A DNA stretch of 22,656 nt from positions 1 to 22,656 of the IMG/VR virus record IMGVR_UViG_3300045008_000273; one strand, given 5' to 3'. The notes under the pieces were generated by a model, which was not told where the DNA came from, ran no database searches, and saw only the letters and a list, made by a program, of their open reading frames with translations. Positions 1 to 22,122 of this stretch are shown here, piece after piece (within the stretch, counting starts at the first letter, position 1; every line of letters begins with the position of its first letter). The position numbers were made by a program, and so were the translations under genes. Source of the stretch: a virus.

Positions 1-3000
1 ACTATAGTCTCTGTGGGATTGTTTAAGATTTTTAAGCATCTGTTTCCCATGTTTTTCAAGAACTTTGTCCACACCCTTAGCATCTATAGCATTTACTTGT
101 GGGGCATAAGTAAAATTAATTGAAGAGCCTGATTGTGGGACATAGCCCGCATTCACAGCATTAAGGAATGGCACACCTACTGCATCTACTCCTCTGCGGG
201 ATATCATATATTCGCCGGTTTGGCCAATAATCAACCTTTCATCGGAAGCAATATTCCAACCGGAATGAGCATAAACTGGAATATGTCCACCCTGATGCAT
301 AATCAAACCGCCGGAGTGTAAGATCTTGGCCTGCATTAACATAGCAACAATTTGAAGAGCAAGTGCTGCGGCTTGTAATACCATACCTGCTGCTACCAAT
401 CCTTGAGAACCAGTCATAAGTCCCAAAGCAGCTAGTCCCATACCAGCAGCACTTATTCCCATTGCCATGCTACTCATCATTCCAGCTTGACCAGCCATCT
501 GACCTTGCACACCAGATTTATATTGAGCAGGAACAGCAGTACCACCAAAATATGCTACAGAAGGTTTCCAAAGTCCCACAGCTTGACCAAACAAAGTTAC
601 TACTTTAAGGAGGCCACCAAATATACCCGAACCACCACCGCCTCCTCCCCCAAAGCCACCCACAGAACCTGGGGCAGAACTTTCGGCTGCGGAAATCATT
701 CCTTCCGCAGATTCACCATATGGTCCCACACCGGCCGCGGCTTTGTTGGCCCCGAAACCACCTAGACTACCAGGAACACCCCCACCCACACTAGGAACAG
801 CATTCCTTAAAACCTCAGCAGCTTCATAACAATACTTCAAAATGGCCAAACCAGCAGCAATACCACCCTGTTCGATAGTTGTAGCTGCCAACTTGGCTTG
901 GGTCTGTTGTGTTCCAACTTCTGTGCCAGTTATCCATTGCCAAAGTTTTGCTACTCCTGTGAATACCTGACCAACTCCTAAATCTAAGCCCTTTTGCAGC
1001 AAACTACTTACTATAGTTCGAGCAATCGCTTTTAAATCAAACCCTTTCCCGCTGAAATAATTAATAAGCTGCTCTCCAATACCTTTACTAACCTGCTGTT
1101 CTACATCTTCTAAAACACTTTTCACTATCCCAGATATTTCTGTTAGGCTTTTTTTAATTCTCTCTAATGCCCAAATATTAATACCACCTAAAATATCCTG
1201 AGTTTCCCACTTCTTAACTGTCAACTGATATCTTTGGGCAGCTTGTTCAAGAAGCAACAAAGTGGCTAATTCTTCTTTCTGCACACTACTAAGATTTTGA
1301 TTTTTCTCAAGATATTCGGCCAAATCAATTTTTGCCACAGCCTGTTGTATGTGCAAACTAGCTTCTTGATATTTTAATTGGTCTGTAACAAGGGGCATAT
1401 TAGAACTGAGGCCAGAAAGGTATTTTTCATACTGACCAAGTATGCTTTTTTGTGCTTCCAGTTTGTTAAGCTGACTTTTAAGAAGATCATCTTTTTCTTT
1501 TTCTTTAATAATATTTTCGGTGTTCTTTCTTAGATATTCTACTATGTGTGTCCCATGTATTTGGTCGTAGGCTTCTAAACCTGCATCTAATATCAGTTGT
1601 TCTGTTTTAGAACGGAGTATTTCTTTCTCAAATCCTAAAGCGTATGTTCTCCACTCATTCTGTTCTTGATATGTTAGGTTCATTCCAGCAAGAATGTCAG
1701 CCGTATTTTTGACCATTTCATTTATTTTAATGGTGTCATTCAATTCAGTTCTATACAGTTCTATGGCTTTTCCCAGTTCCTGTATCCCTTCCTTGTCATA
1801 ACCCCCCATCTTCGCCGCCAAAGCCTTGTCTGCCACTTGTTGCCATGCTTTCGTTGCATCTAAGCCAGTATATTTACTAAAGATCTTATTCACATAATCG
1901 TAAGTTTCTTTGCGAATACCAGTTCTCGGCGCACCAGCTTCTATCCATTTATCTACATTCGCAGGACCCCAGTTGTATGCCATTAAGGCCAACCATCTAT
2001 CTTTAAATTTATCTAACATTAAATCAAAATATTTTGCCCCACCCATAATATTTTGGCGTGGATCAAAAATATCTGTCACCTCCATATCCAGAGCTGTGCC
2101 CGGCATTAATTGCATAAGTCCCTTTGCCCCCTTGGGGGAGACAGCCCCAACTCTGCCGCCAGATTCTGCAGCTATCATAATTCTGATAAAATCGGCACCT
2201 ATTCTTGGATATTTGTTTGCTGCTTCTTCCACTGCATCAGCAATTTGTTGGCTCAAGGGCCTAGTATCTATTTGCAAAGGAAATTGGGGATATTTTCCTT
2301 CCATTTGTCTGCGGTATTCTAAACCACCCATAAAATTTTCAAAAATCTTATAATATCCCCCATAGTCTGTGGCATAGGCGCCACTCGGAGGTATAGGAAT
2401 ATTACTGTATGGGCTTGATTTTCCTTTATTCCCAAATCTGTCAAACAGTTTTAATAGTTCGTCTAATCTATCGGTCAGTTCTTCTATTTGAAACTTCCAA
2501 CTGTTGCCAAATCTAGTAGCTGACTCTACTCCCTTATCCCCTACAGATACCAAGGTCTTTTCTAGAGCAGAACCACCCTCCAAAAGACCAGACATAATAC
2601 CACCAAGGAAACCTCCTTCTTTAGAAGGTGTGAATTTCCTTCTCAATTCTTCATACTTAAATTCTATTTTTTTGGCTTCTCCTCCTATGGTGCCCCCTAC
2701 TATAGTATCTAAGTAAAATTGGTAAAATTCTCTATTGGATTTTTCTATCCCCTCCTTAATAATTTTATCCCGTAGTTCATATAATTGTCTCTCGAAAGCT
2801 ATTGACATTTTTTGGGTTTCCCCAAATTCTCTCATTTTTGTTATTGATTTTTCTATAGAATCATTCAACTTAAACATATGGGACACTATCCTACCAAAAT
2901 GATTTTCAGTTGACTTGCCTAGTTCTTGTCCCATAGTGGCTATAAGGGAATTGGCAGAAGTTAAGGCTGCGACAGCTTCTTCCTTCCACTGCCTGACCCA

Positions 3001-4653
3001 AGGCTCCTGTTGGGTAGGTGGTAATCCTGTTGGAACCTGAAGACCCTTTTGTAAAGCTTCTATTGCTTCTTCCGCTTCTTTCCAGGTCCTCTCTTTTATC
3101 TCAGTCCATTCATTTAATAGTTCCCACCAACTCCTGGATCCTGTCTTCATGGCTTCCAAATATTCTTTAAAAGAAGCGGTTCCACTTTCAGACAACCTTC
3201 TTAAATACTCTTCTTCAACTTTTTTTGCTGTGGCTCTTTCTAATTGCAGCTGGGCTAGCAGCCCTATCCCCCCGCCTATGCCCATTCCTATGCCTGCCCC
3301 CTGTGGACCAAAGCGAGCTCCTGCTATACCACCAGCTACAGCACCAGCAATTGGCCAACCTGGATATCCCAACCCCCCAGCAGCAATTCCTCCTGCTGTA
3401 GCTCCTCCAGCAATAGCCCCAGGAATACCCCTAACTGCAAGACCAACACCAGCCCCAATTATTGCTGCCATTACGGGGTCTTTTACTAGATCTTTGATTG
3501 TTATAAGCAATTCTTTTATTACATACAAGACATTTCTAACCCCATCCCAAGCACCTTTTAATTGGGAACCGATATATTCTCTATTTTCTCTGATGTATTT
3601 ATTAATTTCCTTTATCCAATTAACAGTTTCTTGATAGGGGTCTATCATCCCAGTCCTTATTGCTTGGCGCATATAAGTACTTGTAGTAGATATTTGGGCC
3701 AGTAGAGTATCTTCAACAAAGGGCCTAGCTACTTCCATACCAGGAAGCATGCGAGCTAGAGGTTCAAGGCTCCCCGTCCTGCGGATTTCATCGAAAACTT
3801 CGTGCCAAGCCCCACCAAGTCTATCCTTCACCAACCTAGCCAATTGGTCAGTTGCCCTAGCTTGGCCAGTTAAAGCAGCCCGCAATTCTTGTGCAATTTG
3901 TACACTGCTGGTTTGCCCAACAGTTAGAAGTTTGACCTTGTCAACAATAATACCGAGATACTCTATTTCTTCCCCCTGAAGAACAATTCTGTTTTGGGCT
4001 AAAATATTCCAACCTTGAATAAGTTCTTGACCAGTAGCAAAATATTTAGCAGCAGCCATTTCTAACTTTTCATAAGTATCTCGTGCGTAACTAAGATTTT
4101 GAATAAAATTGCCATATGCATTAGACTGATCTTTGGCCATATCAGTCATAGTGGCAGCAATACCAATAGTAGTAACATGGTATTCGTCAACCACATTTAA
4201 TGCTGATTTCATTATATCAATGGCAGTACGAAGAGAATAATAAGCTACGGCTATGGAAGCAATAATGCGGGCAGTTCTTAAAAGGCGATCATTTAAGTAT
4301 TCTACAGTAGATTTGTGTGATTCAAATTCCCTCCCCTGTCTGGCTAAAACAACATTAACTTTATTTCCAGTTTCCCCTATAGTTTTAATTGCTTCATTTA
4401 TCTGTTTGTTCGCGGCAATTGCTTCATTTGTGCCAGAAGTTCTAACTCTGATTGTTGCTCCTTTTATTCCTTCCGTTTTCATTTTTTCTAGCAAGCCAAT
4501 AGCTTCTTGCACAGAAGTTGCGTCAACATTCAATCTAACTGGAGTTTTGCTGGCAGCTGCGCCCTTAGCCTTTATTTCATCAATGGCTTTTCTGGCCTGT
4601 TCTTCACCTTCAACTTTTATCTCTATTGCCAGCCTAGTTACGTCTATGTCCAC
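1..4653 (-). CDS. Tail tape measure protein with internal lytic transglycosylase domain (C-terminus beyond left edge)
   Basis: I read this frame through to base 1 and found no stop, giving at least 1,551 codons with the C-terminus missing. It sets tail length and is ejected with the DNA. The order is: an N-terminal helical region; a Gly/Ala-rich hydrophobic segment at about residues 390-470; long charged helical stretches; a goose-type SLT transglycosylase domain at about 810-905; more coiled coil to about 1270; then a Gly-rich and membrane-like segment at about 1280-1440. The SLT domain shows AAESGG with candidate catalytic Glu830, SPKGAKGLMQLMPGTA near 840-855 and AYNWGP near 893, all hallmark motifs, so it probably cuts peptidoglycan during DNA entry. 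The best start is GTG at 4653, about nine bases after AGGGAT. The upstream chaperone stop TAG lies in the same frame. Position after the G/G-T pair is the standard tape measure locus. Confidence 0.93.
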   Translation of the reverse strand, partial: MDIDVTRLAIEIKVEGEEQARKAIDEIKAKGAAASKTPVRLNVDATSVQEAIGLLEKMKTEGIKGATIRVRTSGTNEAIAANKQINEAIKTIGETGNKVNVVLARQGREFESHKSTVEYLNDRLLRTARIIASIAVAYYSLRTAIDIMKSALNVVDEYHVTTIGIAATMTDMAKDQSNAYGNFIQNLSYARDTYEKLEMAAAKYFATGQELIQGWNILAQNRIVLQGEEIEYLGIIVDKVKLLTVGQTSSVQIAQELRAALTGQARATDQLARLVKDRLGGAWHEVFDEIRRTGSLEPLARMLPGMEVARPFVEDTLLAQISTTSTYMRQAIRTGMIDPYQETVNWIKEINKYIRENREYIGSQLKGAWDGVRNVLYVIKELLITIKDLVKDPVMAAIIGAGVGLAVRGIPGAIAGGATAGGIAAGGLGYPGWPIAGAVAGGIAGARFGPQGAGIGMGIGGGIGLLAQLQLERATAKKVEEEYLRRLSESGTASFKEYLEAMKTGSRSWWELLNEWTEIKERTWKEAEEAIEALQKGLQVPTGLPPTQQEPWVRQWKEEAVAALTSANSLIATMGQELGKSTENHFGRIVSHMFKLNDSIEKSITKMREFGETQKMSIAFERQLYELRDKIIKEGIEKSNREFYQFYLDTIVGGTIGGEAKKIEFKYEELRRKFTPSKEGGFLGGIMSGLLEGGSALEKTLVSVGDKGVESATRFGNSWKFQIEELTDRLDELLKLFDRFGNKGKSSPYSNIPIPPSGAYATDYGGYYKIFENFMGGLEYRRQMEGKYPQFPLQIDTRPLSQQIADAVEEAANKYPRIGADFIRIMIAAESGGRVGAVSPKGAKGLMQLMPGTALDMEVTDIFDPRQNIMGGAKYFDLMLDKFKDRWLALMAYNWGPANVDKWIEAGAPRTGIRKETYDYVNKIFSKYTGLDATKAWQQVADKALAAKMGGYDKEGIQELGKAIELYRTELNDTIKINEMVKNTADILAGMNLTYQEQNEWRTYALGFEKEILRSKTEQLILDAGLEAYDQIHGTHIVEYLRKNTENIIKEKEKDDLLKSQLNKLEAQKSILGQYEKYLSGLSSNMPLVTDQLKYQEASLHIQQAVAKIDLAEYLEKNQNLSSVQKEELATLLLLEQAAQRYQLTVKKWETQDILGGINIWALERIKKSLTEISGIVKSVLEDVEQQVSKGIGEQLINYFSGKGFDLKAIARTIVSSLLQKGLDLGVGQVFTGVAKLWQWITGTEVGTQQTQAKLAATTIEQGGIAAGLAILKYCYEAAEVLRNAVPSVGGGVPGSLGGFGANKAAAGVGPYGESAEGMISAAESSAPGSVGGFGGGGGGGSGIFGGLLKVVTLFGQAVGLWKPSVAYFGGTAVPAQYKSGVQGQMAGQAGMMSSMAMGISAAGMGLAALGLMTGSQGLVAAGMVLQAAALALQIVAMLMQAKILHSGGLIMHQGGHIPVYAHSGWNIASDERLIIGQTGEYMISRRGVDAVGVPFLNAVNAGYVPQSGSSINFTYAPQVNAIDAKGVDKVLEKHGKQMLKNLKQSHRDYS

Positions 4654-9300: not shown

Positions 9301-9771
9301 TCATTGCCTCTTGGACTTTTTGGGTTGAGCAGGAACTCCCATAACAGTTATTCCTGGTGGAACATCTCTAGTAACAACTGCCCCAGCCCCAACCATAGAG
9401 TGTTCTCCAATAGTTACTCCACAGATAATGGTAGAATTTGCTCCGAGACTAGCGCCAGACTTAACCACAGTTTTTTCAAACTTTCCTCTTCTATGGGATC
9501 TTGGAAATTTGACGTTGGTAAAAACAACCGAAGGTCCCACGAAAACATTATTCTCAAGAGTTACGCCATCATAAATTGAAACATTATTCTGTACATGAAC
9601 ATTGTCGCCCAAAATCACATCCGAAGCCACATAGACATTTTGACCCAAAACACAGTTTTTTCCTATTTTAGCTCCGGCCATAACATGGCAAAAGTGCCAA
9701 ATCCGACAACCTTCTCCAATTTGTGCTCCTTCATCAATTACTGCTGTTTCATGTACAAAATAGTCCACCAT
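9301..9771 (-). CDS. WlbB/WbpD-like sugar N-acetyltransferase (left-handed beta-helix), shortened
   Basis: This 156-residue protein is built almost wholly of hexapeptide repeats (IGEGC, IGKNC, LGDNV, IGEHS patterns, residues 10-145), the left-handed beta-helix of trimeric acyltransferases. The order IWHFCHVMAGAKIGKNCVLG followed by VQNNVSIYDGVTLENNVFVG is that of WbpD/WlbB, which acetylate UDP-2-acetamido-3-amino-glucuronate using acetyl-CoA. It ends soon after GVPAQPKKSKRQ and lacks the roughly 30-residue tail of bacterial members. It lies two bases after a WlbA-like dehydrogenase, a pairing seen in LPS sugar operons. Its place inside a phage head-tail module is unusual. Exact substrate is inferred. 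Confidence 0.85.
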   Translation of the reverse strand: MVDYFVHETAVIDEGAQIGEGCRIWHFCHVMAGAKIGKNCVLGQNVYVASDVILGDNVHVQNNVSIYDGVTLENNVFVGPSVVFTNVKFPRSHRRGKFEKTVVKSGASLGANSTIICGVTIGEHSMVGAGAVVTRDVPPGITVMGVPAQPKKSKRQ

Positions 9772-9773
9772 AA

Positions 9774-10616
9774 TTATCCCGCTTTCATATTTCTTATTTT
9801 TTCACATAATAAAACAGAGGGAGAGGCTTCTATAAGGCCGAAACCCTTGCCGTTAAGGATATACTGATAAGAAAATTCATGTAATTGAGTAAACCCTTGG
9901 CTAAATTCTATTTGTTTGTCCCCTATAATCAAATTTCGTTTAGGTTCCTTCCCTCCAATAGATAAATTAAAATGGACTTCAGCTCCTTCCAAAAACAATT
10001 TTCCTATTACACAACTGTCTGTTTTTTTATACAGTTCAATTCCCTGTTCTTTGCCAAACAGCCATAGGCACAAGTCAAACAAATGAATACCTATGTTGGT
10101 TGCAAGTCCCCCCGACTTCCCCTCACTTCCTTTCCAGGATTTGTGATACCAACAACCACGAGGAGTTATGTAATCAACAGATACTTTATAATATTCTTCC
10201 TTTTTCACTTCTTGCTTTAAAGCGATCAAAGAAGATTTTAATCTTAGTTGTAAAATAGTATTTATTTTTTTACCAGTTCTTGCTTCGGCCTCTGCTAATT
10301 GCAATAGATCATAACTATCTAAGGCTATAGGTTTTTCACAAATTACATTTGCTCCAATTTCCATTCCCCAAATAGACTGAGGAACATGGAGATAATTAGG
10401 GGAACATATTACTACATAATCAACAGAAATTTTTTTGCAATAGGTTTTAAACTTCCTTTCATCACTAAAAAATTCAGCTTCTGGAAAATAAGAATCAATC
10501 ACCCCCACTACATCGTGTTTGGGTTCACAAATAGCTATAAGTTCCCCCCCAACACTTTTTATTGCCGCCATGTGGCGGGGGGCCACAAAACCTACACCAA
10601 ACATAGCGAACTTCAT
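9774..10616 (-). CDS. WlbA/WbpB-like NAD-dependent sugar dehydrogenase (Gfo/Idh/MocA)
   Basis: This 280-residue oxidoreductase has an N-terminal Rossmann motif GVGFVAPRHM (residues 7-16), CSPNYLHVP (71-79), CEKPI with Lys95, YITPRGCWYHKSWKG (149-163) and NIGIHLFD with His178 (174-181). These match WlbA/WbpB, which oxidise C3 of UDP-N-acetylglucosaminuronate before amination. It is somewhat shorter than bacterial homologues (about 310-320). Its ATG overlaps the stop of the zinc-ribbon gene (ATGA), and the acetyltransferase follows directly. The dehydrogenase making the uronic acid and the aminotransferase are not in the window, so host enzymes or genes elsewhere would have to supply those steps. 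Confidence 0.87.
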   Translation of the reverse strand: MKFAMFGVGFVAPRHMAAIKSVGGELIAICEPKHDVVGVIDSYFPEAEFFSDERKFKTYCKKISVDYVVICSPNYLHVPQSIWGMEIGANVICEKPIALDSYDLLQLAEAEARTGKKINTILQLRLKSSLIALKQEVKKEEYYKVSVDYITPRGCWYHKSWKGSEGKSGGLATNIGIHLFDLCLWLFGKEQGIELYKKTDSCVIGKLFLEGAEVHFNLSIGGKEPKRNLIIGDKQIEFSQGFTQLHEFSYQYILNGKGFGLIEASPSVLLCEKIRNMKAG

Positions 10617-10768
10617 TTCTCCAACATCCCAACAAAAAATTCTGTTGTATTATTTTTATTACAACTATGGCAAATTATTGGGAGCGGGTAAACCACCCAA
10701 CCATTTTGTTTTTCACCCAATAAATTTTTGCACTTGCAGCAAACGAACTGTTTCTTACTTTTTACCAT
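10613..10768 (-). CDS. 51-residue zinc-ribbon-like microprotein
   Basis: This short open frame encodes 51 residues with a basic start (MVKSKKQF) and two cysteine pairs, CCKC at 10-13 and CHSC at 33-36, spaced like a zinc ribbon. Its stop overlaps the start of the WlbA-like gene (ATGA), and its start lies two bases after the DUF6582-like gene, so it is part of the same transcript. The ribosome site is only A-rich, which suggests coupling. No specific function can be assigned. Cys spacing and tight packing support it being real. Confidence 0.6.
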   Translation of the reverse strand: MVKSKKQFVCCKCKNLLGEKQNGWVVYPLPIICHSCNKNNTTEFFVGMLEK

Positions 10769-10770
10769 AC

Positions 10771-11019
10771 TTAAGATTTTTTCTTTTTTCTTCCCTTTTT
10801 CTTTTCCTTATTTTTGTCTGCCACAGAAGGCATATCGGGATACTTACGCTTTACTGCTGCACGCACCCGACGCTTCTCTTCTGGTGAGCCATGCTGTGAT
10901 ACCCTAGCCAACGCGTTGGCGGCATGTGCTCGGTCATTAATAGGATAAGCCCTATCCTCTGGTATTGCAAATTGGCTTTTGCTCATGCTTTTTCTCTGTT
11001 TGGTAGTAAGTTTGGCCAT
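10771..11019 (-). CDS. Small basic protein, DUF6582-like
   Basis: This 82-residue protein carries KSQFAIPEDRAYPINDRAHA, then ANALARVSQHGSPEEKRRVR and AAVKRKYPDM, a pattern I recall from DUF6582-type proteins found in phages and plasmids, followed by a lysine-rich tail (KEKKKGRKKKKS). ATG at 11019 follows AGGAGG at ideal spacing. The role is unknown; the strong positive charge would allow nucleic acid binding. It lies between the glycosyltransferase and the zinc-ribbon gene. The family name is from memory. Confidence 0.75.
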   Translation of the reverse strand: MAKLTTKQRKSMSKSQFAIPEDRAYPINDRAHAANALARVSQHGSPEEKRRVRAAVKRKYPDMPSVADKNKEKKKGRKKKKS

Positions 11020-11028
11020 AAAATCCTC

Positions 11029-12219
11029 CTATACTGCTAAGGGCAATGACTTTAATTCCGGTAAAGGCAGAACGTCCTCTTCTCTCAACTCTGCAAGTAA
11101 ATCATTAAATCCTAAAGAACTTAAATTACTTTTAAATTCTTCCATCATCTTAGGATCAGCCAATTCTTTGTTTGGTTTAAATAAATTCCAAGCATCCCTC
11201 GCCTCATGCAAACAAGATATACACAATCTGTATAACATCAAAACAAAAGCATCTTTTCTTAAAGTGAAATAGAATCTGCCCCCCATAGTATGGGGTTTGT
11301 TAATGCAATTGCTATACCCCTTTAAGAATCTTCTTGCCCCTTCAGCCACCAAAGCATTTTCTTTAGTAAAAGTACCTTGGTCAGAAAGAGCTAGCCCAAG
11401 GTCAGGATTAAACGGGTCATCTTTTAATCCCATGCGCAGCAATTCCTGAGCTTTTTTATAGTCCCCCATTGCCTGATAATTTCGTACTTGGGTAAAATAG
11501 ATAGTCTCATTGAAGTCACCACCCATGTCATCTTTCCGGTTTAAATACTCATCCCCCCATTTGGCTGAAGCCTTGAGATCTCCATGCTGTCCATATAATT
11601 GACAAAGATAAAAGGGAACTTGTAAATTATTTGAATTACTATGATATTCCTTCATTAATGCCTTGCGCGTCCTTCTAAATTTCTTCTCCATTTTCGCCTT
11701 GGAGAGACCATAACCATAGTGTTCGATATACATAGAGCTGCACAATCCACAAGAGCCCTCAAATTTGGGTTGGTTGTGAATTTTTCCTTCATACCGAATT
11801 TTTCCCCTGCGAAAAAGACGAGCCGAATTGCAACGCATCACAACAGAACCTTCTTGAATATCTTGCACCATTAGGGCAAGAGCTCCAATATTTTCTGGAA
11901 GAGTTGTCAACCATTCTTTTATTTCTTTTTTGGTAATTCCAGGGGTGGTTATTAATTTTTCATCTGCGTCTATAATTAAAATAAAGTCTGCGTCTACTGC
12001 TTTAGAAATAGACTCATTCCTGTGATAAGAAAAGTCATTTTTCCAAGGACTATGGTAGATAGTTGCGCCAAAAGATTCAGCAATTTCTATAGTCTTATCT
12101 TCACTACCAGTGTCACAGACTATAATTTCATCACAAATGTCTTTTATGGAAGATAAGCATTGAGACAGAAGATCCTCTTCATTTTTGACCATCATACAGG
12201 CCGTTAGTTTAGGCAACAT
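11029..12219 (-). CDS. GT2 glycosyltransferase with C-terminal TPR-like repeats
   Basis: This 396-residue protein opens with a GT-A fold of family 2: LTACMMVKNEEDLL (5-18), IIVCDTGSEDKTIEIAESFG (32-51) and the nucleotide-sugar/metal DAD motif in ILIIDADE (80-87). A helical region at about 195-290 (QVPFYLCQLYGQHGDLKASA, YFTQVRNYQAMGDYKKAQEL) looks like tetratricopeptide repeats. GT2-TPR proteins include peptide and protein glycosyltransferases. I chose ATG at 12219 because AGGGAG lies just upstream; an ATG 15 bases earlier has no ribosome site. Together with the WlbA/WlbB-like genes it implies transfer of a modified sugar to a virion or host target. Target and sugar are not shown by the sequence. 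Confidence 0.88.
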   Translation of the reverse strand: MLPKLTACMMVKNEEDLLSQCLSSIKDICDEIIVCDTGSEDKTIEIAESFGATIYHSPWKNDFSYHRNESISKAVDADFILIIDADEKLITTPGITKKEIKEWLTTLPENIGALALMVQDIQEGSVVMRCNSARLFRRGKIRYEGKIHNQPKFEGSCGLCSSMYIEHYGYGLSKAKMEKKFRRTRKALMKEYHSNSNNLQVPFYLCQLYGQHGDLKASAKWGDEYLNRKDDMGGDFNETIYFTQVRNYQAMGDYKKAQELLRMGLKDDPFNPDLGLALSDQGTFTKENALVAEGARRFLKGYSNCINKPHTMGGRFYFTLRKDAFVLMLYRLCISCLHEARDAWNLFKPNKELADPKMMEEFKSNLSSLGFNDLLAELREEDVLPLPELKSLPLAV

Positions 12220-12235
12220 AGATTCTCCCTGCATT

Positions 12236-13981: not shown

Positions 13982-14962
13982 TTAGGTTACCGCAGTTTCA
14001 GTAGTAGTTAGAGAATCAACCTGTTTAACAGGGAATCCGCGGAAGAACATAGTGGGCCGACCCCAAACATCGGGAGGACCATATTGGACATTAGATTTAT
14101 CCTTAGCGTCTTTGTCCATAAGCGCCAAAGTAGTTTTGTTGGCATATATGACAGCACCAGCACCGCCAAGAGGCATCTGCCGGATAGCATCAATCATTTT
14201 GTCATCACTCCAGGCTCCGGTAGTCCGGGTTGCATGGATATTACACACCCGTTGCACGCAACGGTCATCCCGAACCACTAGACCAACATAGACCTTAAAG
14301 TGGGTTTGGTATACCTTAAAGGGGTTGTTACTTGAGTCGTACACAGTCAAAATCCCATCATCCTTTGCAGAAATACCAACTGTTTTGGAGTTTTTGGGAT
14401 ATATCATATGCACTTTGTCTGCGCCCCACTGAACGATCCAGACAGAAGAAAGGGCAGAACCAGTACCCCCACAACCATGCACATTGTGAGTAGCACTCAC
14501 ATTAGCAGTAGTTAGAGCAGCATATCTGGTGGCAAATCCATTAAATTTCTCAGGATAACCAACAGTAGTGGAATAAAAAACAGCAGTAGCCATAGTCTGG
14601 GAAAGACCTTCGACAAATGATACATCTTCAGTCCACCGAAAACCCATAGGATCATCGGAGATGTCAATCAGGGCTTCATCAACCTGACTAAAGGCTTCCA
14701 ACATACCGATAGTTTCTACAACCTGTTGGGTCCGGGAAGCTTCGCGGGACACACCCGTATTAAGTTTACGCCAAGAACCCGTAGGCAAAGCCACCCGCTT
14801 GGTAGTAACATGAGAAGTTTCCCCATTAGCGGACAGCCAAATAGCATCATCTAAAATAGAGTTGACTTGGTTGAGCACTTCAGCAATAGCTTGGACCTGT
14901 CCATCTTTGGTCCGCTTTGCTAGTTCAACCAAAGTCAAGCGGTTAGCAGTCATTGTGGCCAT
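13982..14962 (-). CDS. Major capsid protein, BPP-1-like
   Basis: This 326-residue protein shows the succession typical of the BPP-1 (Bbp17) major capsid group: LTLVELAKRTKDGQVQAIAE near the start, NQVNSILDDAIWLSANGETS, the ALPTGSWRKLNTGVS strand, ETIGMLEAFSQVDEALID, then YPKNSKTVGISAKDDG and VGLVVRDDRCVQRVCNI. It has the HK97 fold by family knowledge. The protein lacks a long N-terminal delta domain, in keeping with a separate scaffold gene just upstream. ATG at 14962 follows GGAGG at a somewhat long spacing. It is flanked by scaffold and cement genes. Confidence 0.92.
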   Translation of the reverse strand: MATMTANRLTLVELAKRTKDGQVQAIAEVLNQVNSILDDAIWLSANGETSHVTTKRVALPTGSWRKLNTGVSREASRTQQVVETIGMLEAFSQVDEALIDISDDPMGFRWTEDVSFVEGLSQTMATAVFYSTTVGYPEKFNGFATRYAALTTANVSATHNVHGCGGTGSALSSVWIVQWGADKVHMIYPKNSKTVGISAKDDGILTVYDSSNNPFKVYQTHFKVYVGLVVRDDRCVQRVCNIHATRTTGAWSDDKMIDAIRQMPLGGAGAVIYANKTTLALMDKDAKDKSNVQYGPPDVWGRPTMFFRGFPVKQVDSLTTTETAVT

Positions 14963-15011: not shown

Positions 15012-15773
15012 CTACTTTTTCATACTAGGATAGAAGGAATCAAGCACATTTTGGGGTTGGTCTGCCGACTTCCCACCAGGAGGCGAAGCACCATACCCAG
15101 AACTTCCAGCACCTTTCAAGATTGAGTCTTTATTTGGGTACTTGTTTATCAGTTTCTCTATAGCCTCTTCCGGAGAAGCTAATTGTCCGGGGTTTATGTC
15201 TGAAAAAACATCCCCACCCTCGGGCCAAGAAGCAACAGTTTTCAAAACTCCATTAACTTCTTCCACCCTGAAACACCTACCAAAGTGTGAATATGCCATC
15301 TCGGCAGGTAAGTTTGTTTTTTCTTTAATGAACTTGGAAGCGTGGAAAGCCCCCTTGATAAGAAGATCATTAATCTGATTATGCTTCTTAGCTATAATCT
15401 GATCCTTCTCTTCAATTTTGCCAGTAAGATCCAGTTGCATTTCCTTTAATCGCAATTCGTAGGCTTCCCCAGTAGCCTGCTTAACTTTCTCTACCTCGCC
15501 AACATCAAGGAGCTTTTTATCCTCCAAATTCTGAACAGTCTCCATCGCTTTGCGGGCCTTTTCTGGATCTATTCCTTCATAAACCCTATACTTGGCTTCT
15601 AGTTCTTCTATTTTCTTGCGGCGACCAGCACTCTCGTTATTGGCAGCTTGCAAGTCCTTAATAACTTTTGGAATGTCATAGGCTACCTCAGTCTTGTCAT
15701 CCAAAATCCAAACAGGAAGCCCTTCCTCTGATACAACAACACTACCCGTTTCTTCATCAATCTTTAACTTCAT
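15012..15773 (-). CDS. Capsid scaffolding protein
   Basis: This 253-residue protein is highly charged. A small N-terminal domain (KLKIDEETGSVVVSEEGLPVW) leads to a long coiled coil (about residues 40-145, Lys/Glu-rich with regular Leu), then a segment with HASKFIKEKTNLP and YSHFGRCFRVEE, and a flexible Gly/Ser/Pro tail ending in a short basic helix (YPSMKK) of the kind that binds coat protein. Position directly before the major capsid gene supports scaffold. ATG at 15773 follows GGAGGG at seven bases, better than the longer starts at 15809 or 15788. The candidate promoter at 15860-15900 lies upstream. Confidence 0.82.
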   Translation of the reverse strand: MKLKIDEETGSVVVSEEGLPVWILDDKTEVAYDIPKVIKDLQAANNESAGRRKKIEELEAKYRVYEGIDPEKARKAMETVQNLEDKKLLDVGEVEKVKQATGEAYELRLKEMQLDLTGKIEEKDQIIAKKHNQINDLLIKGAFHASKFIKEKTNLPAEMAYSHFGRCFRVEEVNGVLKTVASWPEGGDVFSDINPGQLASPEEAIEKLINKYPNKDSILKGAGSSGYGASPPGGKSADQPQNVLDSFYPSMKK

Positions 15774-15832
15774 ATGGAATCCCTCCATCCTTCTGGGCAT
15801 CTCACCCAACCGTAATAATGATTTTCAGGCAT
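15770..15832 (-). CDS. Possible 20-residue leader peptide overlapping the scaffold start
   Basis: An open frame from ATG at 15832 encodes 20 residues ending GWVRCPEGWRDSI and stops at a TGA that overlaps the scaffold ATG (ATATGA). The overlap would couple its translation to the scaffold. Its own ribosome site is weak, so it may not be translated. Confidence 0.3.
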   Translation of the reverse strand: MPENHYYGWVRCPEGWRDSI

Positions 15833-15839
15833 CTCGCCC
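15796..15839. repeat. Imperfect 12-bp direct repeat in the scaffold leader
   Basis: The minus strand carries GGGCGAGATGCC (15828-15839) and GGGTGAGATGCC (15796-15807), 32 bases apart and 11 of 12 identical, just upstream of the scaffold ribosome site. It may be an operator or a remnant duplication. Confidence 0.5.
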
Positions 15840-15859
15840 ACTTTTGTTACATTTAAGTT

Positions 15860-15900
15860 ATATTACTTTCTCTATTTTATATTAATAAAGCCGTTTTCGT
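15860..15900 (-). promoter_or_regulatory. Candidate promoter with shared upstream element, before the scaffold gene
   Basis: The minus strand shows ACGAAAACGGCTTTATT (15884-15900), including a -35-like TTTATT, then an 18-base gap and TAATAT (15860-15865). The 17-bp element matches the one before the terminase operon at 15 of 17 positions. TTGAAC at 15905-15910 with TATTAA at 15882-15887 (17-base gap) is an alternative reading. The region is AT-rich and free of longer genes. Confidence 0.45.
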
Positions 15901-15914
15901 CGTTGTTCAAATTA

Positions 15915-16109
15915 TCACTTATTTTTTCTTGTTCCTTTGTAGTGTTTATTGCGATGTTTCTTTTTATTCAGTTGTCTTTTTTTCCCTCTTGTTCCTTTAT
16001 AGGTTTCCGCAACCATTTTTTCTCTTTTCTTCTTATCCTTAGTTTCATCCTTGGACTTTTTCTTCTTAAGTGATCTAGCCTTTTTTCCTCTCTGACTTTT
16101 ATTTCCCAT
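15915..16109 (-). CDS. Very basic small protein, unknown function
   Basis: This 64-residue protein is roughly half Lys and Arg, with no hydrophobic core: blocks such as SLKKKKSKDETKDKKKREK and two copies of YKGTR followed by basic residues. It is likely disordered and could bind nucleic acid, perhaps packaged DNA, or be a charge-neutralising component of the head; that is inference from charge. ATG at 16109 follows TGAGG. It ends just before the scaffold promoter region. Confidence 0.6.
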   Translation of the reverse strand: MGNKSQRGKKARSLKKKKSKDETKDKKKREKMVAETYKGTRGKKRQLNKKKHRNKHYKGTRKNK

Positions 16110-16118
16110 TTCACAACC

Positions 16119-16292
16119 TCATAGTTCTAAAAAGCCCAGCTCAAATAATTCTCTCATTTCCTTATCTGGAGGAAAAGGATCAATGAAACCGCCAGTCAAA
16201 GCATATAGTTTAATTGCTTCCCTTATGGCTTCTTCTTTAATGCGCTTGAGCATTATTTTATCAGTAATTTTAAATTCAACTACATCTCCCAT
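16119..16292 (-). CDS. 57-residue helical protein, unknown function
   Basis: This short frame encodes a helical protein (KITDKIMLKRIKEEAIREAI, then LYALTGGFIDPFPPDKEMRE). ATG at 16292 follows GAGG at eight bases. It is packed between the CDKC zinc-ribbon gene (gap nine bases) and the basic protein gene (gap nine bases), which favours it being real. No family recognised. Confidence 0.6.
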   Translation of the reverse strand: MGDVVEFKITDKIMLKRIKEEAIREAIKLYALTGGFIDPFPPDKEMRELFELGFLEL

Positions 16293-16301
16293 TGTTCAGC
16301 C

Positions 16302-16481
16302 TCAATTTGGTCTGTTATGGACCCAAATGTTTCCCCCCTCAAGTTCAATATGTTCTGGTCCACACCAACACAAACCATTCTCATCTAAAATATGGGAATT
16401 AGTATTACAGTTGGGGCAAATATAAGAACCATCTTCCAATTTGGTGAAACTACACAATTCCTTGCATTTGTCACACTGCAT
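16302..16481 (-). CDS. 59-residue zinc-ribbon-like microprotein
   Basis: It encodes 59 residues with CDKC (3-6), a further Cys at 10, CPNC (22-25) and CWC at 38-40, followed by GPEHIELEGGNIWVHNRPN. The first two pairs have zinc-ribbon spacing. Its start overlaps the end of the upstream 72-residue gene by 11 bases in another frame. Function unknown; a small protein adaptor or nucleic-acid binder is possible. Confidence 0.6.
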   Translation of the reverse strand: MQCDKCKELCSFTKLEDGSYICPNCNTNSHILDENGLCWCGPEHIELEGGNIWVHNRPN

Positions 16482-16689
16482 TATTTGCTGACTCCTCTAT
16501 TTCCTCTGTCTTTTTGCCACAGAAAGGGCAGTACTGAATACATAATAATCTACCATCTTGGTACTGACAAGGACTTAAAAAAATATTACCCCCTAAAATA
16601 ACGAACCAATCTTTAAAGGCTTCAGCCAAAACACAACAAGGTTGCAAATGGTATTCAAAAATTCTGTTTAGAACCTTGATTATTTTCAT
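16471..16689 (-). CDS. 72-residue protein with CPFCGKKTEE motif
   Basis: This small protein has cysteines at PCCVLAEAF (18-19) and a C-terminal YCPFCGKKTEE half-ribbon motif after a hydrophobic middle (DWFVILGGNIFL). Its ATG overlaps the stop of the head morphogenesis gene (ATGA) and its end overlaps the next small gene, so the set is translationally coupled. Such CPFCG proteins are common, uncharacterised phage products. Confidence 0.7.
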   Translation of the reverse strand: MKIIKVLNRIFEYHLQPCCVLAEAFKDWFVILGGNIFLSPCQYQDGRLLCIQYCPFCGKKTEEIEESANNAV

Positions 16690-17783
16690 TGTAATTCTTT
16701 TAGAGTTAATAGTCTTCCCGTGCTTTTATCTACAAGTTCATTAAATCTGATTCTTCCACTTTGTATCAATTCAAATCTGGTGGGACCCACTACATTTTTC
16801 TGAAACCTATCGGATTGTTGGTAAAAAAAATCTTCGTAATTTCCCTGTATTCTACCAGCTTGTAATATAGTTTTTCCTTTTCTTCCAGAACCAATGTTGA
16901 TATTAGGTCTTATAGTGTAGGGCCTGTAGGCTTCTTCCACTTCCTCCATGTCTTTTATACCTAGTTCTTTCCAAGTCTTTGTCCAGGGCACTAAACAACA
17001 CCTACAGAGAGGATGAAGTGGACATTGAGGCCTTTTTTCTCCCCATCCCCACCTTGTGCCATCTAATCCGGCACAAGCCAAACAAGTGCCTCTGCCTGTC
17101 TTTTTATAACTAGTTTCTAAAGTAGCTACCCACTGGACCCCCTTAACAATATCTCTATTTCCTTCATACACCATTTCTTGGGCCGCAACATTAGCCCCTT
17201 GTACATAAGTCCTGGCAACCATAATGGCATCAGATTCCGCTATCCCAAATCCCTCCCCTATCCTTTCAACTAAGGAAGAGTAAGATTCTCCTTGGATAAC
17301 ACCAGATAATAATTCCTTCTTAATTTGTTCCTGGACACTATATTCATAAACCCGATCAACCCAGTCTTGCAAAACCCTACCGCCTAAAGGCGTTTCCTGT
17401 ATAAAACTTTTTAACTGATTTGGAGACATAGCAACATTATTAAAATTCTCTATTCTACCACCAAAAGACAAAATATCAGAATGCACTGAAAGGGCATTAG
17501 TTCCCACAATAGACGCTATCTCAACTATGGATTCTCCCAACATAGTACGGGCTGCCACAGTTAAATCATTAAAATTATCTAGCAAGGCAATGCTACGAGC
17601 TTCTGACCAATCCGTAAGCCCAGCCCCAACAGCATCTAAATAATCAAGAATTTCTCTTTGTGCTTTTTGTAAAACAGCCAAAAGTTGTTTTAGTGTGCCA
17701 ACAGACCAAGACTCCAGATCATACAAATATTGTAAGTTTCTGTTAAAAATTATAAGTTCCAATATTTCCTGTTCTTTACTCAT
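16686..17783 (-). CDS. Head morphogenesis protein, Mu F / SPP1 gp7-like
   Basis: This 365-residue protein has a helical N-terminal half and then the Mu-F domain: GESYSSLVERIGEGFGIAES (165-184), VARTYVQGANVAAQEMVYEG (189-208), and TCLACAGLDGTRW (233-245) with CPLHPLCRC (254-262), whose Cys and His residues could hold a metal. Members are minor capsid proteins in a few copies, near the portal, acting in assembly and early infection. The position immediately after the portal fits. It is coupled on both sides: its ATG overlaps the stop of the 54-residue gene, and its stop overlaps the next ATG. Confidence 0.9.
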   Translation of the reverse strand: MSKEQEILELIIFNRNLQYLYDLESWSVGTLKQLLAVLQKAQREILDYLDAVGAGLTDWSEARSIALLDNFNDLTVAARTMLGESIVEIASIVGTNALSVHSDILSFGGRIENFNNVAMSPNQLKSFIQETPLGGRVLQDWVDRVYEYSVQEQIKKELLSGVIQGESYSSLVERIGEGFGIAESDAIMVARTYVQGANVAAQEMVYEGNRDIVKGVQWVATLETSYKKTGRGTCLACAGLDGTRWGWGEKRPQCPLHPLCRCCLVPWTKTWKELGIKDMEEVEEAYRPYTIRPNINIGSGRKGKTILQAGRIQGNYEDFFYQQSDRFQKNVVGPTRFELIQSGRIRFNELVDKSTGRLLTLKELQ

Positions 17784-17944
17784 CCGGCCTCTACAGAGGT
17801 ATTTTCCTTAGGATTTTTTCCCTTTGTGGGGCACTCCCCATGGTAAAAGGGACTACTAAAATTCATACACAATTTGGTAGTTTCCTCACAAAACCAACAT
17901 TCAAAAACTAAATCTTTTACCATAGGATCATATTGGCTACACAC
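17780..17944 (-). CDS. 54-residue Cys-rich microprotein between portal and Mu-F-like genes
   Basis: The start is GTG at 17944, overlapping the portal stop (TAGTG) with AGGGGA about nine bases upstream; the stop overlaps the next gene (ATGA). It encodes FECWFCEETTKLCMNF and FYHGECP, giving four Cys and a His in a ribbon-like arrangement (residues 16, 19, 26, 38). Double overlap argues for a real gene. Function unknown. Confidence 0.62.
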   Translation of the reverse strand: MCSQYDPMVKDLVFECWFCEETTKLCMNFSSPFYHGECPTKGKNPKENTSVEAG

Positions 17945-19470
17945 TATTTCACTCCCCTAAAGGTCTTACCTTTCTTAGTAAAATTAGGCAACTGAGGCCG
18001 TTTTACACTGCCTATAGGTACTCTAGGTGGGGGCAAAGTTCCACCTGGTTGCGGTAATCCTGTATTACTAAATCCTGAAAATGAAGAAACAGACTCATTC
18101 TCAAGCATATCAAAGATCTCATCAACATCGCTATCTTCAGCAATAATCCCTCTACGCAAGAATTCCTGAAGAACCACACGCCTTGGTAGAATTCCAGCAA
18201 CTTTAGCCTTAATGAGAACATCTGCATCAGCAGTTTGCAGTAAACGGTATTCCGTATTTACAGTTATAGAACCAGGAGAATCTATTTTCATCCACTCAGC
18301 CGTATATACAAGTGCCTGTTCCAAACAGTCCTTAAAAATAAGAGCCCAAGTTTTCAAAGTGCAGTCGTTTTCACTGCTAGACAATGCCTTTTCCGTAGCT
18401 GTTATTCTTCCTGTCTTGGGAATTAAAAGTTGCAACCCATAAAGAGCCATTCTTTGTTCCAGATTATCTAAGTCTTCCCTGCCTGCCCCTATAGCTTGCC
18501 CCGTATGTTCAACATATTTCAGATCTGCGTCTTCCCTGCTAGCATGAATCATGCGGTTGGGACCAATTTCGAGTTTACTTATGTCATCAGAAAGCAACTT
18601 ACCAAAAAGTAAAGGCACCCTAGCAAAGTGGAGAATATTTGTTTGGTCGCTATTGGATTGCCAATGAGCAAGATTCAAGTATGCAAGGTCCTCTAGAGGG
18701 GGAACTGCTGTCATGTAACTAATTTTTTCCCCTACCCTAAAAACAGCTAAGGGTATTTCATCTTTAAAAGAAACCTCGCCCTTCTCTATCAGTTTCCAGG
18801 AAATTTCTCTGCCACCACTATCATCTTCATATAATTCATATTTCCCCGGTTCTAGTAGGCGTATCCTCTTAACTGTTTTTATACCATATTTACCCTCGTC
18901 TTTTTCCACTTCTTCCAAAATGCGGATCTGAGTCAGTTTTATCTCCCCACCCACAGTTTTGGTTCTCCACCCGATTATTGAAGTCGCTGGAACATGAACC
19001 CAATATGGCCTGATATTCGCCGACTTCTCTTCTTCTTTAGTTAGGTCTGTAGGAACTATAGGATAATCTACGAGTATACAACTAATACCATCTATAAGTC
19101 CAGCTTCAAAAACCCTTTTTGCAAAAACTTCCAAATTATTATTCTGTAAATCGATGTTCTCTGTTAATTCCTTGACCTCTTCCGGGTTATCGTCCTGAAG
19201 AATTAGAGGTTTGGAAAAAACTTGCCCTGACAAATACGTAACTGTGCGGCGAAAGGCATTAAGAAGTACTGTTCTTTGCAAGCGATTTTCATAAGCCTTG
19301 TCGCTTTCTTCTGGTTCTTGGGGTAGATATTTTGTTCGTGCGTCTCGCATAGCCTTGGTTCCCCCCATCAGGGTGTCTACCAAGTCTAGTCTGTCTTGGT
19401 GTACTATATAAGCATCAACAGGCTGCGAAATATCATCGTTTGGGCTTTTACTCGGAATAGACTTAGCCAT
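17944..19470 (-). CDS. Portal protein (DUF4055 type)
   Basis: This 508-residue protein has the DUF4055 pattern: RTKYLPQEPEESDKAYENRL, AFRRTVTYLSGQVFSKPLIL, then NIDLQNNNLEVFAKRVFEAG and ISCILVDYP, YWVHVPATSIIGW, and later PPLEDLAYLNLAHWQSNSDQ, a portal motif. The dodecameric ring is the DNA gate and binds terminase. I chose ATG at 19470 over TTG at 19473 because AGGAG lies six bases upstream. The C-terminal 60 residues are a Pro/Gly-rich flexible tail ending in basic residues. Gene order between large terminase and Mu-F-like protein agrees. Confidence 0.9.
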   Translation of the reverse strand: MAKSIPSKSPNDDISQPVDAYIVHQDRLDLVDTLMGGTKAMRDARTKYLPQEPEESDKAYENRLQRTVLLNAFRRTVTYLSGQVFSKPLILQDDNPEEVKELTENIDLQNNNLEVFAKRVFEAGLIDGISCILVDYPIVPTDLTKEEEKSANIRPYWVHVPATSIIGWRTKTVGGEIKLTQIRILEEVEKDEGKYGIKTVKRIRLLEPGKYELYEDDSGGREISWKLIEKGEVSFKDEIPLAVFRVGEKISYMTAVPPLEDLAYLNLAHWQSNSDQTNILHFARVPLLFGKLLSDDISKLEIGPNRMIHASREDADLKYVEHTGQAIGAGREDLDNLEQRMALYGLQLLIPKTGRITATEKALSSSENDCTLKTWALIFKDCLEQALVYTAEWMKIDSPGSITVNTEYRLLQTADADVLIKAKVAGILPRRVVLQEFLRRGIIAEDSDVDEIFDMLENESVSSFSGFSNTGLPQPGGTLPPPRVPIGSVKRPQLPNFTKKGKTFRGVK

Positions 19471-19499
19471 CAATAACTCCTATACCAAAAAGTTTTTCA

Positions 19500-20915
19500 T
19501 TAAATCAAAAATTCCCTACTGAAAGCATCTACACCCACAACGGGGAATTCATAGGCAATATAATAACCAATGGCGTCCGTGAGATGGCTTAAACGCAAAT
19601 CGTAACTTTTATCTATCTCACCACTACCCCCCTCCAAAAGACGCACTCCTTCAAAATCCTTAACAACATGGGGAGCTTTGGTATTATCAATCATTAGCCT
19701 GACCAAGCCAGCTTTACTCAGCAATCTGCTATTTACACTATTTATCCGCACCCTTTCTCTCGGATTATGTTTGGGTACTCTATAGAACACCTTACCCCCC
19801 CATTCATTTTTAAACATAGTGCGTATAATATCCCAGTCGCTCCCAGCAGTTTGGCTAGTTCCCTTAGCTCCTCCTGTAGCATCACCATAACAGATTACTC
19901 TCCCTTTATGACCCTTATAATCATTGATTAATCTGTTACAGACAGCAGGAGTATTACTATTTCTTGGTATATAAACTTCTCCTATAACCCCAGTGCCCCA
20001 AATAGGTTCCTGGAAATATTGTCCCCCTCGCTCCGCCCATTGAAACTGTTCTGGCATAGGCTGTTCCTGGCAAATAGCAGCAACTCCGGGGTTGACATTA
20101 AAGTCGAAGCAAAAAATTAAATCTGCTTCTTCCCTATATTTTAGGGGAGAAGACGAATGAACAAAGGGATTATATGGATAATACGCTTTGCCATGAAAAG
20201 ACACAAAGTTTGCCTCATATTCCTGCATATAAGACAAGTCGTCTAAGTCTTTCTTGGCTTGTTCTATTTCCTCAGGGGGCAAAATATCTGCACTTTTCCA
20301 GTGGAATCCGTCCCACTCAGGTGCTTTACCTTCAGCCTTAGCCTTCACTGCTATGGCCCTAGCATCTTCATAAAGATCATAATAGTGGTTTCTACCTTCT
20401 GGAACGCCAATCATCCAAGCCCAACCATTTCTGTCAGAAAGGCATGGCCTAACATGGAGAGTCCATGTTACCGGCTTCATATTGGCATACTCATCCAGTA
20501 TACAACCATCCCAAGGGGGGCCTTCAATTCGTTCAGGCTTGTCTAAACCAACAACGCAGACCTCCGCCCCACTTATCAGCCTTATTACTAATTCGCTTTC
20601 GCTTATTCCCCTTTTTTTGTTCGGGTAAAAAGCCCAATTAGGTATCATGGCTTTTAGATCATTCCAAAAGATGGCTTTGGCCTGACCAAAAGTCGGAGCT
20701 CCCGCAAAGTATCTAGGATTCCTACTCTGTGCTGGTCTAGGTATTCTAGTATCCCAAGGATTTAGTGATCGCAAAACTAAATATCGTTTGCTTATCTCAG
20801 TTTTACCAGACCTCCTCCCAGCAGGAACAACCTTAAATCTAGTATCCTGATATAGTAATCTATGTTGTTCATAGTGGGGTTTCATATCCCCCCACCGCAG
20901 AGTAGGCCCACTCAT
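19500..20915 (-). CDS. terL: Terminase large subunit
   Basis: This 471-residue protein has an N-terminal ATPase with Walker A AGRRSGKT (32-39), Walker B GCILDEY (137-143, Asp141 and Glu142) and a coupling stretch near MIGVPEGRNHYYD, then an RNase H-like nuclease with FDFNVNPG (Asp271), YGDATGG (Asp345) and LSHLTDAIGYY (Asp447) forming the expected acidic triad. It cuts and pumps DNA into the prohead. It starts one base after the small subunit stop with no clear Shine-Dalgarno, so coupling is likely; an ATG ten codons later is an alternative start. Confidence 0.96.
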   Translation of the reverse strand: MSGPTLRWGDMKPHYEQHRLLYQDTRFKVVPAGRRSGKTEISKRYLVLRSLNPWDTRIPRPAQSRNPRYFAGAPTFGQAKAIFWNDLKAMIPNWAFYPNKKRGISESELVIRLISGAEVCVVGLDKPERIEGPPWDGCILDEYANMKPVTWTLHVRPCLSDRNGWAWMIGVPEGRNHYYDLYEDARAIAVKAKAEGKAPEWDGFHWKSADILPPEEIEQAKKDLDDLSYMQEYEANFVSFHGKAYYPYNPFVHSSSPLKYREEADLIFCFDFNVNPGVAAICQEQPMPEQFQWAERGGQYFQEPIWGTGVIGEVYIPRNSNTPAVCNRLINDYKGHKGRVICYGDATGGAKGTSQTAGSDWDIIRTMFKNEWGGKVFYRVPKHNPRERVRINSVNSRLLSKAGLVRLMIDNTKAPHVVKDFEGVRLLEGGSGEIDKSYDLRLSHLTDAIGYYIAYEFPVVGVDAFSREFLI

Positions 20916-20916
20916 C

Positions 20917-21654
20917 TTAATGTTTCACAATATCACTAACTGGAACAGAGGGTTGCTCCTCTTGCAAAACCTGTGATTCCTCTTTGTGTACAGAAGGTTG
21001 TGGTACAGTGGGAAGCCCAAAGCCAGAAATAGTCTTTTCATAGGCATCTTTAATTCTGTCAGCAACTTCATCAGCATCAAACCTACCCTCTTGGAACATA
21101 CCCTTGACAGCACCCAGAGTTTTCAGAGCTTCCAACTTGCCAGAATGCAGTTTGACTTTGACTTTTTTGACTACTTTTCCTGGCTTCCCCCCCGCAGCCA
21201 TAAATTCTACCTCTTCCATACTGACTTCTTGAATAGCAGCAGCCACATCGTTGGTTAGTTCATCACTAGGAATAATTGTAACTGAGTCCTTGTCCCATTT
21301 CATCACATCCTTCATGGTGACAAGGCTAAGTCTAGTAATTTCCCGTAAAATACGATTCTCAGTTACATTATCATATACTTTATCTATTTTATTCTGGATA
21401 TAATCGTTGACTTCTTTCCTATTGAAAATTGCATTTGCAGTTCTGATACTATATCCAGCTACTTTTGCTGCCGCTGACTTATCGAAACCATTTCTAAGGT
21501 ATTCTTCGCAAAGAATCTGTACCTTATGGGGGAGTTGGTATCTCCTAGCAGCAAAAGGTTTGTTAAAAGTAATATACTGACGCAAATTCTTTTCAGGATC
21601 TTCCCTAGGTATTGATTTTTTCCTTATAGCTTTGCGTTTAATTTTGTTAGTCAT
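20917..21654 (-). CDS. terS: Terminase small subunit
   Basis: This 245-residue protein has a basic N-terminus, a helix-turn-helix-like segment typical of small terminases (VQILCEEYLRNGFDKSAAAK followed by VAGYSIRTANAIFNRKEV, residues 45-82), a central helical oligomerisation region and a C-terminal Pro/Gln/Glu-rich tail. It recognises the packaging site and recruits the large subunit, which follows directly. ATG at 21654 follows AGGG. The insertion of VEFMAAGGKPGKVVKKVKVK near 150-170 looks like a beta-hairpin. Confidence 0.88.
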   Translation of the reverse strand: MTNKIKRKAIRKKSIPREDPEKNLRQYITFNKPFAARRYQLPHKVQILCEEYLRNGFDKSAAAKVAGYSIRTANAIFNRKEVNDYIQNKIDKVYDNVTENRILREITRLSLVTMKDVMKWDKDSVTIIPSDELTNDVAAAIQEVSMEEVEFMAAGGKPGKVVKKVKVKLHSGKLEALKTLGAVKGMFQEGRFDADEVADRIKDAYEKTISGFGLPTVPQPSVHKEESQVLQEEQPSVPVSDIVKH

Positions 21655-21662
21655 AAAATACC

Positions 21663-21842
21663 CTACAATTTTTCTATATCCACAATAAACCTAGTTGCTC
21701 GAACTTTAGCAACTCTAAGTTGTTTATTTATATTGGTAACTATCAGCATTTCGTCCAGACCACACTCCAATATCATGGACAAAACGTCATATTCGTCCAG
21801 AGGTTTGATTTTTCTGTAGGCGTTAAGGTCTACTATACTCAT
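21663..21842 (-). CDS. 59-residue protein leading the terminase operon, unknown function
   Basis: It encodes a small alpha/beta protein (SIVDLNAYRKIKPLDEYDV, LSMILECGLDEMLIVTNINK). The frame stops eight bases before the small terminase start. No ribosome site is visible before the ATG; the candidate promoter would give a leader of only about 27 bases. No family recognised. Its location as first gene of the leftward operon suggests a regulatory or packaging accessory role, unproven. Confidence 0.6.
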   Translation of the reverse strand: MSIVDLNAYRKIKPLDEYDVLSMILECGLDEMLIVTNINKQLRVAKVRATRFIVDIEKL

Positions 21843-21939
21843 TAAATAGGTTATAATATATGCAGTATTCTAAAATTGTATAAGTGTGATCGCTTCAAAA
21901 AGTAAAGCGGTTTTCGTTAATACAACTAGGAGAAACAAC
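21843..21939. other. Divergent intergenic region between late and rightward genes
   Basis: This 97-base AT-rich gap separates leftward assembly genes from rightward genes. It contains TATAAT (21852-21857), the shared 17-bp element, and a short imperfect hairpin (CGCTT at 21891 pairing with AAGCG at 21905). I could not define a convincing rightward promoter. Confidence 0.6.
21877..21917 (-). promoter_or_regulatory. Candidate promoter with shared upstream element, before the terminase operon
   Basis: The minus strand shows ACGAAAACCGCTTTACT (21901-21917), including -35-like TTTACT, then 18 bases and TATACA (21877-21882). The same arrangement occurs before the scaffold gene. It lies in the only divergent gap of the window, so it may also be an operator for the rightward genes. 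Confidence 0.45.
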
Positions 21940-22122
21940 ATGAGTTCTGTAATAGTTTATGTTGCCCTGGCTTGTTGTGGGTATAAAACACTCCAAATCC
22001 ATCTACCACTGATAGAAGGAAAAGTAAAAACAATAAAATGCCCGCATGGAGAACTAAAAATACAATATGAACAAACAAAACCAAAAGCCAATAATTATGA
22101 ACAACATCAAACTGGGGTTTGA
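21940..22122 (+). CDS. 60-residue Cys-containing protein, unknown function
   Basis: This first rightward gene encodes 60 residues with an ACCGYKTLQIHLPLIEGKV core and TIKCPHGELKIQYE; the CC and CPHG groups could bind metal. ATG at 21940 follows AGGAG at seven bases, so the longer frame from 21886 is not the start. The C-terminal part is polar. It overlaps the following nucleotidase gene by 26 bases in another frame. Confidence 0.65.
   Translation: MSSVIVYVALACCGYKTLQIHLPLIEGKVKTIKCPHGELKIQYEQTKPKANNYEQHQTGV

Follow-up and report, generated by a model that had tools for sequence, protein, structure and literature searches.

The phage represented by the window (the whole stretch of DNA analysed, a linear virus contig of 22,656 bp) carries two copies of a 17-bp element, one in front of its terminase genes and one in front of its capsid genes, and the leader that follows the second copy contains three small hairpins. 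The two 17-mers are probably the -35-side halves of late promoters, one for the terminase-portal operon and the other for an autonomous capsid unit, which would be read by a phage factor, with the leader hairpins acting as a translational operator. The elements and the boxes that follow them, the latter located by direct reading, are:

21901..21917, minus strand: 17-bp element copy 1, ACGAAAACCGCTTTACT, in the -35 region of the putative promoter of the terminase operon
21877..21882, minus strand: -10-like box TATACA, 18 nt after element copy 1
15884..15900, minus strand: 17-bp element copy 2, ACGAAAACGGCTTTATT, in the -35 region of the putative promoter of the scaffold and capsid genes
15860..15865, minus strand: -10-like box TAATAT, 18 nt after element copy 2

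The original prediction was that the two 17-mers are identical at 15 of 17 positions on the same strand, that a -10-like box comes 18 nt after each of them, and that one precedes the terminase operon and the other the scaffold gene. All of this is correct. Both 17-mers are on the minus strand, copy 1 precedes the genes for TerS and TerL, and copy 2 precedes a DUF6651 gene adjoining that for the major capsid protein. When the window was searched with a merged pattern allowing up to 3 mismatches, the two 17-mers were the sole matches (0.22 expected); further copies may lie beyond the contig. The genes and the terminator-like site in and beside the two late units are:

21669..21842, minus strand: 57-aa ORF of unclear status, which opens the predicted terminase transcript; no strong Shine-Dalgarno sequence was seen in front of it
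20917..21654, minus strand: terminase small subunit (TerS), Pfam PF03592, Terminase_2
19500..20915, minus strand: terminase large subunit (TerL), by tblastn to annotated TerL; 76% to the relative L003
15915..16109, minus strand: 64-aa lysine-rich protein just 5' of the scaffold promoter, with a counterpart at L023:2012-2203
15012..15773, minus strand: putative scaffold protein (DUF6651), Pfam PF20356, directly 5' of the MCP gene
13982..14962, minus strand: major capsid protein (MCP) of the GP7 family, Pfam PF20911
13237..13261, strand unassigned (listed on the plus strand): terminator-like hairpin, rich in GC and flanked by T runs, minus-strand reading GGAGGAGG..CCTCCTCCTTTTTT

After the second promoter the order is putative scaffold, GP7-type MCP, two small genes and the terminator-like hairpin, with which the capsid unit presumably ends. 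The 64-aa lysine-rich protein, which has no Pfam match, is kept in the relative L023 and is a possible nucleic-acid binder. Elsewhere in the late region (9301-12234, minus strand) are genes for a Gfo/Idh/MocA oxidoreductase, a hexapeptide acyltransferase and a family-2 glycosyltransferase, which suggests modification of surface sugars. At 1-4653 (minus strand) a tape-measure-like protein carries an SLT lytic transglycosylase domain, and because this domain is of the peptidoglycan type a bacterial host is indicated. For the same reason an archaeal BRE/TATA reading of the CGAAAA..CTTTA motif was set aside.

How surprising the repeat is depends on where it is sought. In the two intergenic regions only, a match of equal quality arose in 22 of 4000 dinucleotide shuffles (p 0.0055). 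Over all the non-coding stretches of the window an equally good pair was found in 64 of 100 shuffles, a figure that is pessimistic because several of these "non-coding" stretches probably contain small genes. Taken alone, the pair of 17-mers in the window is suggestive and not decisive.

Additional evidence comes from the same two places in relatives. The closest are L003 (TerL 76%) and L023 (MCP 83%), both from one sample, and a contig from another sample, L051, runs from the portal gene of L003 to the scaffold gene of L023. L051 bridges the two, thus L003, L051 and L023 represent one phage type, and this is the one type close enough for testing the promoter element; more close relatives spanning both places were searched for and none was found. 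The region 5' of the terminase genes in L003 reads ATACAGCTTTTAAT-N16-TATTATAAT and that 5' of the scaffold gene in L023 reads ATACAGCTTTTAAT-N16-TATAAGTATTATAAT, with the exact 14-mer also present 5' of the scaffold gene in L051. This shared word was reproduced exactly in none of 5000 shuffles and equalled by score in 10 of 4000. It has little likeness to the 17-mer of the window beyond a GCTTT core, and the distance from the start of GCTTT to the start of the -10 box is 25 nt in all four promoters (two in the window, two in the relative). The same element thus occurs at more than one late promoter within each of the two phages, and the element differs between them. The TerL of the close relatives L003 (3751-6225) and L004 (619-3084) is split by an intein-like insertion that encloses an out-of-frame 258-aa ORF, HNH-like in appearance; the TerL of the window is without it.

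Farther away the pattern was not recovered. L055 (TerL 59%) has a different arrangement upstream, and a second copy of its scaffold-upstream sequence was looked for and is absent. No convincing repeat was seen in the late intergenic regions of MW202621 (TerL 55%), and a TerL scan over bacterial and archaeal genomes gave no match. An exact-pattern scan of viral contigs for the element plus the -10 box gave 13 matches, mostly one repeated sequence, for which a link to the phage of the window was not established. The original interpretation of the 17-mer ("phage-specific late promoter or activator site") holds in part: the different element shared within the relative, the equal 25-nt spacing and the lack of a sigma-70 consensus match all fit it, while conservation of the 17-mer itself was not found outside the phage of the window. 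We read the 17-mer, from sequence comparison, as a phage-specific late promoter element that is alike within a phage and diverges between phages. An element that is identical within a phage and divergent between phages points to a phage factor that diverges along with it. This factor is probably encoded by the phage, as a sigma factor, an activator or a protein that modifies RNA polymerase, although the 22.6-kb fragment yielded no candidate for a sigma factor or activator. The GCTTT core starts 25 nt upstream of the start of a TATAAT-like -10 box in both units. Read by one such factor, the terminase-portal operon and the capsid unit would be transcribed from one late promoter each and switched on together.

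Could the ordinary RNA polymerase of the host read both promoters? The 17-mer would then combine an AT-rich upstream element with a poor -35 that was copied within the phage, and no phage factor would be involved. The -10 boxes and the spacing (TTTACT/TTTATT, then 18 nt, then TATACA/TAATAT) are acceptable for sigma-70-family promoters, and each phage could have duplicated its own promoter. However, the -35-like hexamers are poor matches to TTGACA, neither site was listed in a sigma-70 consensus promoter scan, and the duplication would have to have happened independently in two phages at the identical two places; we regard this explanation as doubtful. It is very unlikely that the 17-mer is instead an operator at which a phage regulator represses or activates, serving divergent plus-strand genes as well, and not a promoter element proper. 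Copy 1 does lie only 22 bases upstream of a plus-strand ORF at 21940, but there is no divergent gene near copy 2, the element is not palindromic, and the distance from the core to the -10-like box is fixed in both phages. A chance similarity within AT-rich intergenic DNA, for which the 64 of 100 shuffles speak, is also highly improbable given the p value at the two places themselves and the independent, stronger match at the homologous two places of the relative.

The arrangement can be compared with known phage systems. As in the middle promoters of T4, a non-canonical element stands in place of the -35 and a TATAAT-like -10 is retained, and the core of the window, GCTTTA, is presumably similar to the MotA box. 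The centre of the MotA box is at -30 (PMC6024815). In the window GCTTT starts 25 nt ahead of the start of the -10 box, which places the core near -34, about 4-5 bp farther upstream than in a MotA-dependent middle promoter. In addition, no T4-like genes were seen in the window. Like the T4 late promoters, which depend on gp55/gp33, those proposed here would be late promoters directed by a phage factor; in T4, however, the late promoters combine a novel -10 with the lack of a -35 element (PMC6024815), while the shared part in the window is the -35 side.

The best-conserved segment between the scaffold upstream regions of the window and L023 is not the promoter but a leader stretch around GGGYGAGAYGCC. 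This sequence has two copies in the window, both in the scaffold leader and none elsewhere. The capsid transcript has a predicted start near 15853 and would have a leader of about 80 nt, in which the hairpin array, passed over in the original interpretation, begins a few tens of bases downstream of the promoter:

15826..15840, minus strand: leader hairpin 1, TGGGC-GAGAT-GCCTG, in the centroid fold
15794..15808, minus strand: leader hairpin 2, TGGGT-GAGAT-GCCCA, in the centroid fold
15774..15788, minus strand: leader hairpin 3, ATGGA-GGGAT-TCCAT, in the centroid and MFE folds, lying over the Shine-Dalgarno sequence and abutting the ATG

The loops are in order GAGAU, GAGAU and GGGAU. The L023 leader (2250-2342) also has three hairpins, with loops GCGAT, GTGAT and GAGAC, and related hairpins occur in the leaders of L025 (ACAGC-GAGAT-GCTGT) and L055 (AGGC-GAGAT-GCCT); none of the CGAGAYG type was found in L003. 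When the leaders are folded singly, their energies do not reach significance (z -0.6 to -1.4). A leader peptide in place of an RNA was considered and set aside, as reading frames seemed inconsistent by eye. The array seems to be particular to the scaffold leader, and its effect is probably on translation.

Such hairpins extend well beyond this phage. Of 38 homologous scaffold-gene leaders, 36 contain one or more hairpins whose loop is GGAN or GNGAN (72 hairpins in total), compared to 5.4% of 7019 control windows; several of the 38 are close kin, so that not all are independent. The leaders come from IMG/VR contigs (L134-L155 are among those with hairpins) and from named phages, including HK639, P. 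aeruginosa R656 and AUS531phi, and Acinetobacter LPAB85 and TCUAN1. Other host groups covered are Klebsiella, Erwinia, Moraxella, Mannheimia, Pasteurella, Salicola, Rhizobium/Sinorhizobium, Synechococcus and Microcystis. Of the 61 GGAT sites in the leaders, 45 are enclosed by a stem of 4 bp or more, versus 4.8% elsewhere. When all distinct GGAW leader sites were taken, not chosen for pairing, stem pairs 1-4 form in 92, 90, 82 and 73% versus about 39% elsewhere. Several Watson-Crick types occur at each pair, with compensatory changes, and pairing mostly drops, though not at every pair, when the partner is slid. The GNGAN loops give a weaker signal (61, 67, 52 and 52% versus about 38%), and among the DUF6651 leaders stems kept by compensatory changes around a conserved loop are accordingly clear for GGAW and less so for GNGAN. 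The spacing between hairpins is about 21-25 nt in the clearest arrays. In cases with about 100 nt between the scaffold and MCP genes, hairpins of the GGAT type are often present ahead of the MCP gene as well (L137, L143, L149, L150, L154). BPP-1, HU1, BcepC6B and vir555, in which the scaffold gene was assigned by its position upstream of the capsid gene, have no leader hairpins. The Rfam covariance models gave no relevant match in the window, L003, L023 and seven further scaffold-homolog loci. Nothing on the leader array was found in open-licence papers, which is weak evidence of novelty, and a tandem hairpin array before the scaffold genes of phages of many hosts seems to be undescribed.

What might these hairpins bind? 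In known CsrA motifs GGA is in the loop of a hairpin and sites are generally paired (PMC4333381). Here too GGAU or GGAA loops are found in most arrays, often in tandem and with one near the start codon or Shine-Dalgarno sequence, which would fit host CsrA/RsmA sites. However, most of these GGAU tetraloops are closed by C-G, and a C or U engaged in pairing usually stands directly 5' of GGA. In the clade of the window and in Microcystis phage Me-ZS1 the loops are mostly GAGAU/GNGAN pentaloops without GGA; in the window hairpin 3 alone contains it. Rhizobium and Synechococcus phages also carry such hairpins, and we know of no use of CsrA in these hosts. Host CsrA/RsmA is thus an unlikely ligand for the leader hairpins, compatible with many arrays but at odds with most loops in the clade of the window; binding by a phage protein is the simpler assumption.

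Scaffold autoregulation has its classical case in P22, where tuning by unassembled scaffold would likewise require a site on its message. Gene 8 of P22, however, begins 13 bases after the portal gene, without such a leader, and with so short a gap its arrangement is not the same as that in the window. No paper on P22 scaffold autogenous control was found in the open-licence literature. In the coat-protein operators of the MS2/PP7 type and in lambdoid boxB, phage proteins bind short hairpins whose loops are fixed and whose stems vary. The hairpins described here are also short, with fixed loops and variable stems, but they form a tandem array in the capsid leader of a dsDNA phage and their ligand is putative.

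With hairpin 3 over the Shine-Dalgarno sequence, the three hairpins of the window are most likely a translational operator that would tune scaffold and capsid synthesis, perhaps bound by a phage protein, for example the scaffold. More tentatively, tandem hairpins with G(N)GAN loops before the scaffold, and sometimes the capsid, genes of many dsDNA phages may be a widespread RNA element, a cooperative translational operator bound by a phage morphogenetic protein that sets the scaffold-to-coat ratio, to which the phage of the window adds a phage-specific promoter element common to its terminase operon. That shared promoter element would coordinate the transcription of packaging and capsid genes. 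Through a factor that co-diverges with the element, it offers a handle on the late regulator of an uncultured phage group. The balance of scaffold and coat in dsDNA phages is an old question for which few RNA sites have been defined, and as the leader element is also present in HK639 of E. coli, its proposed role is directly testable.
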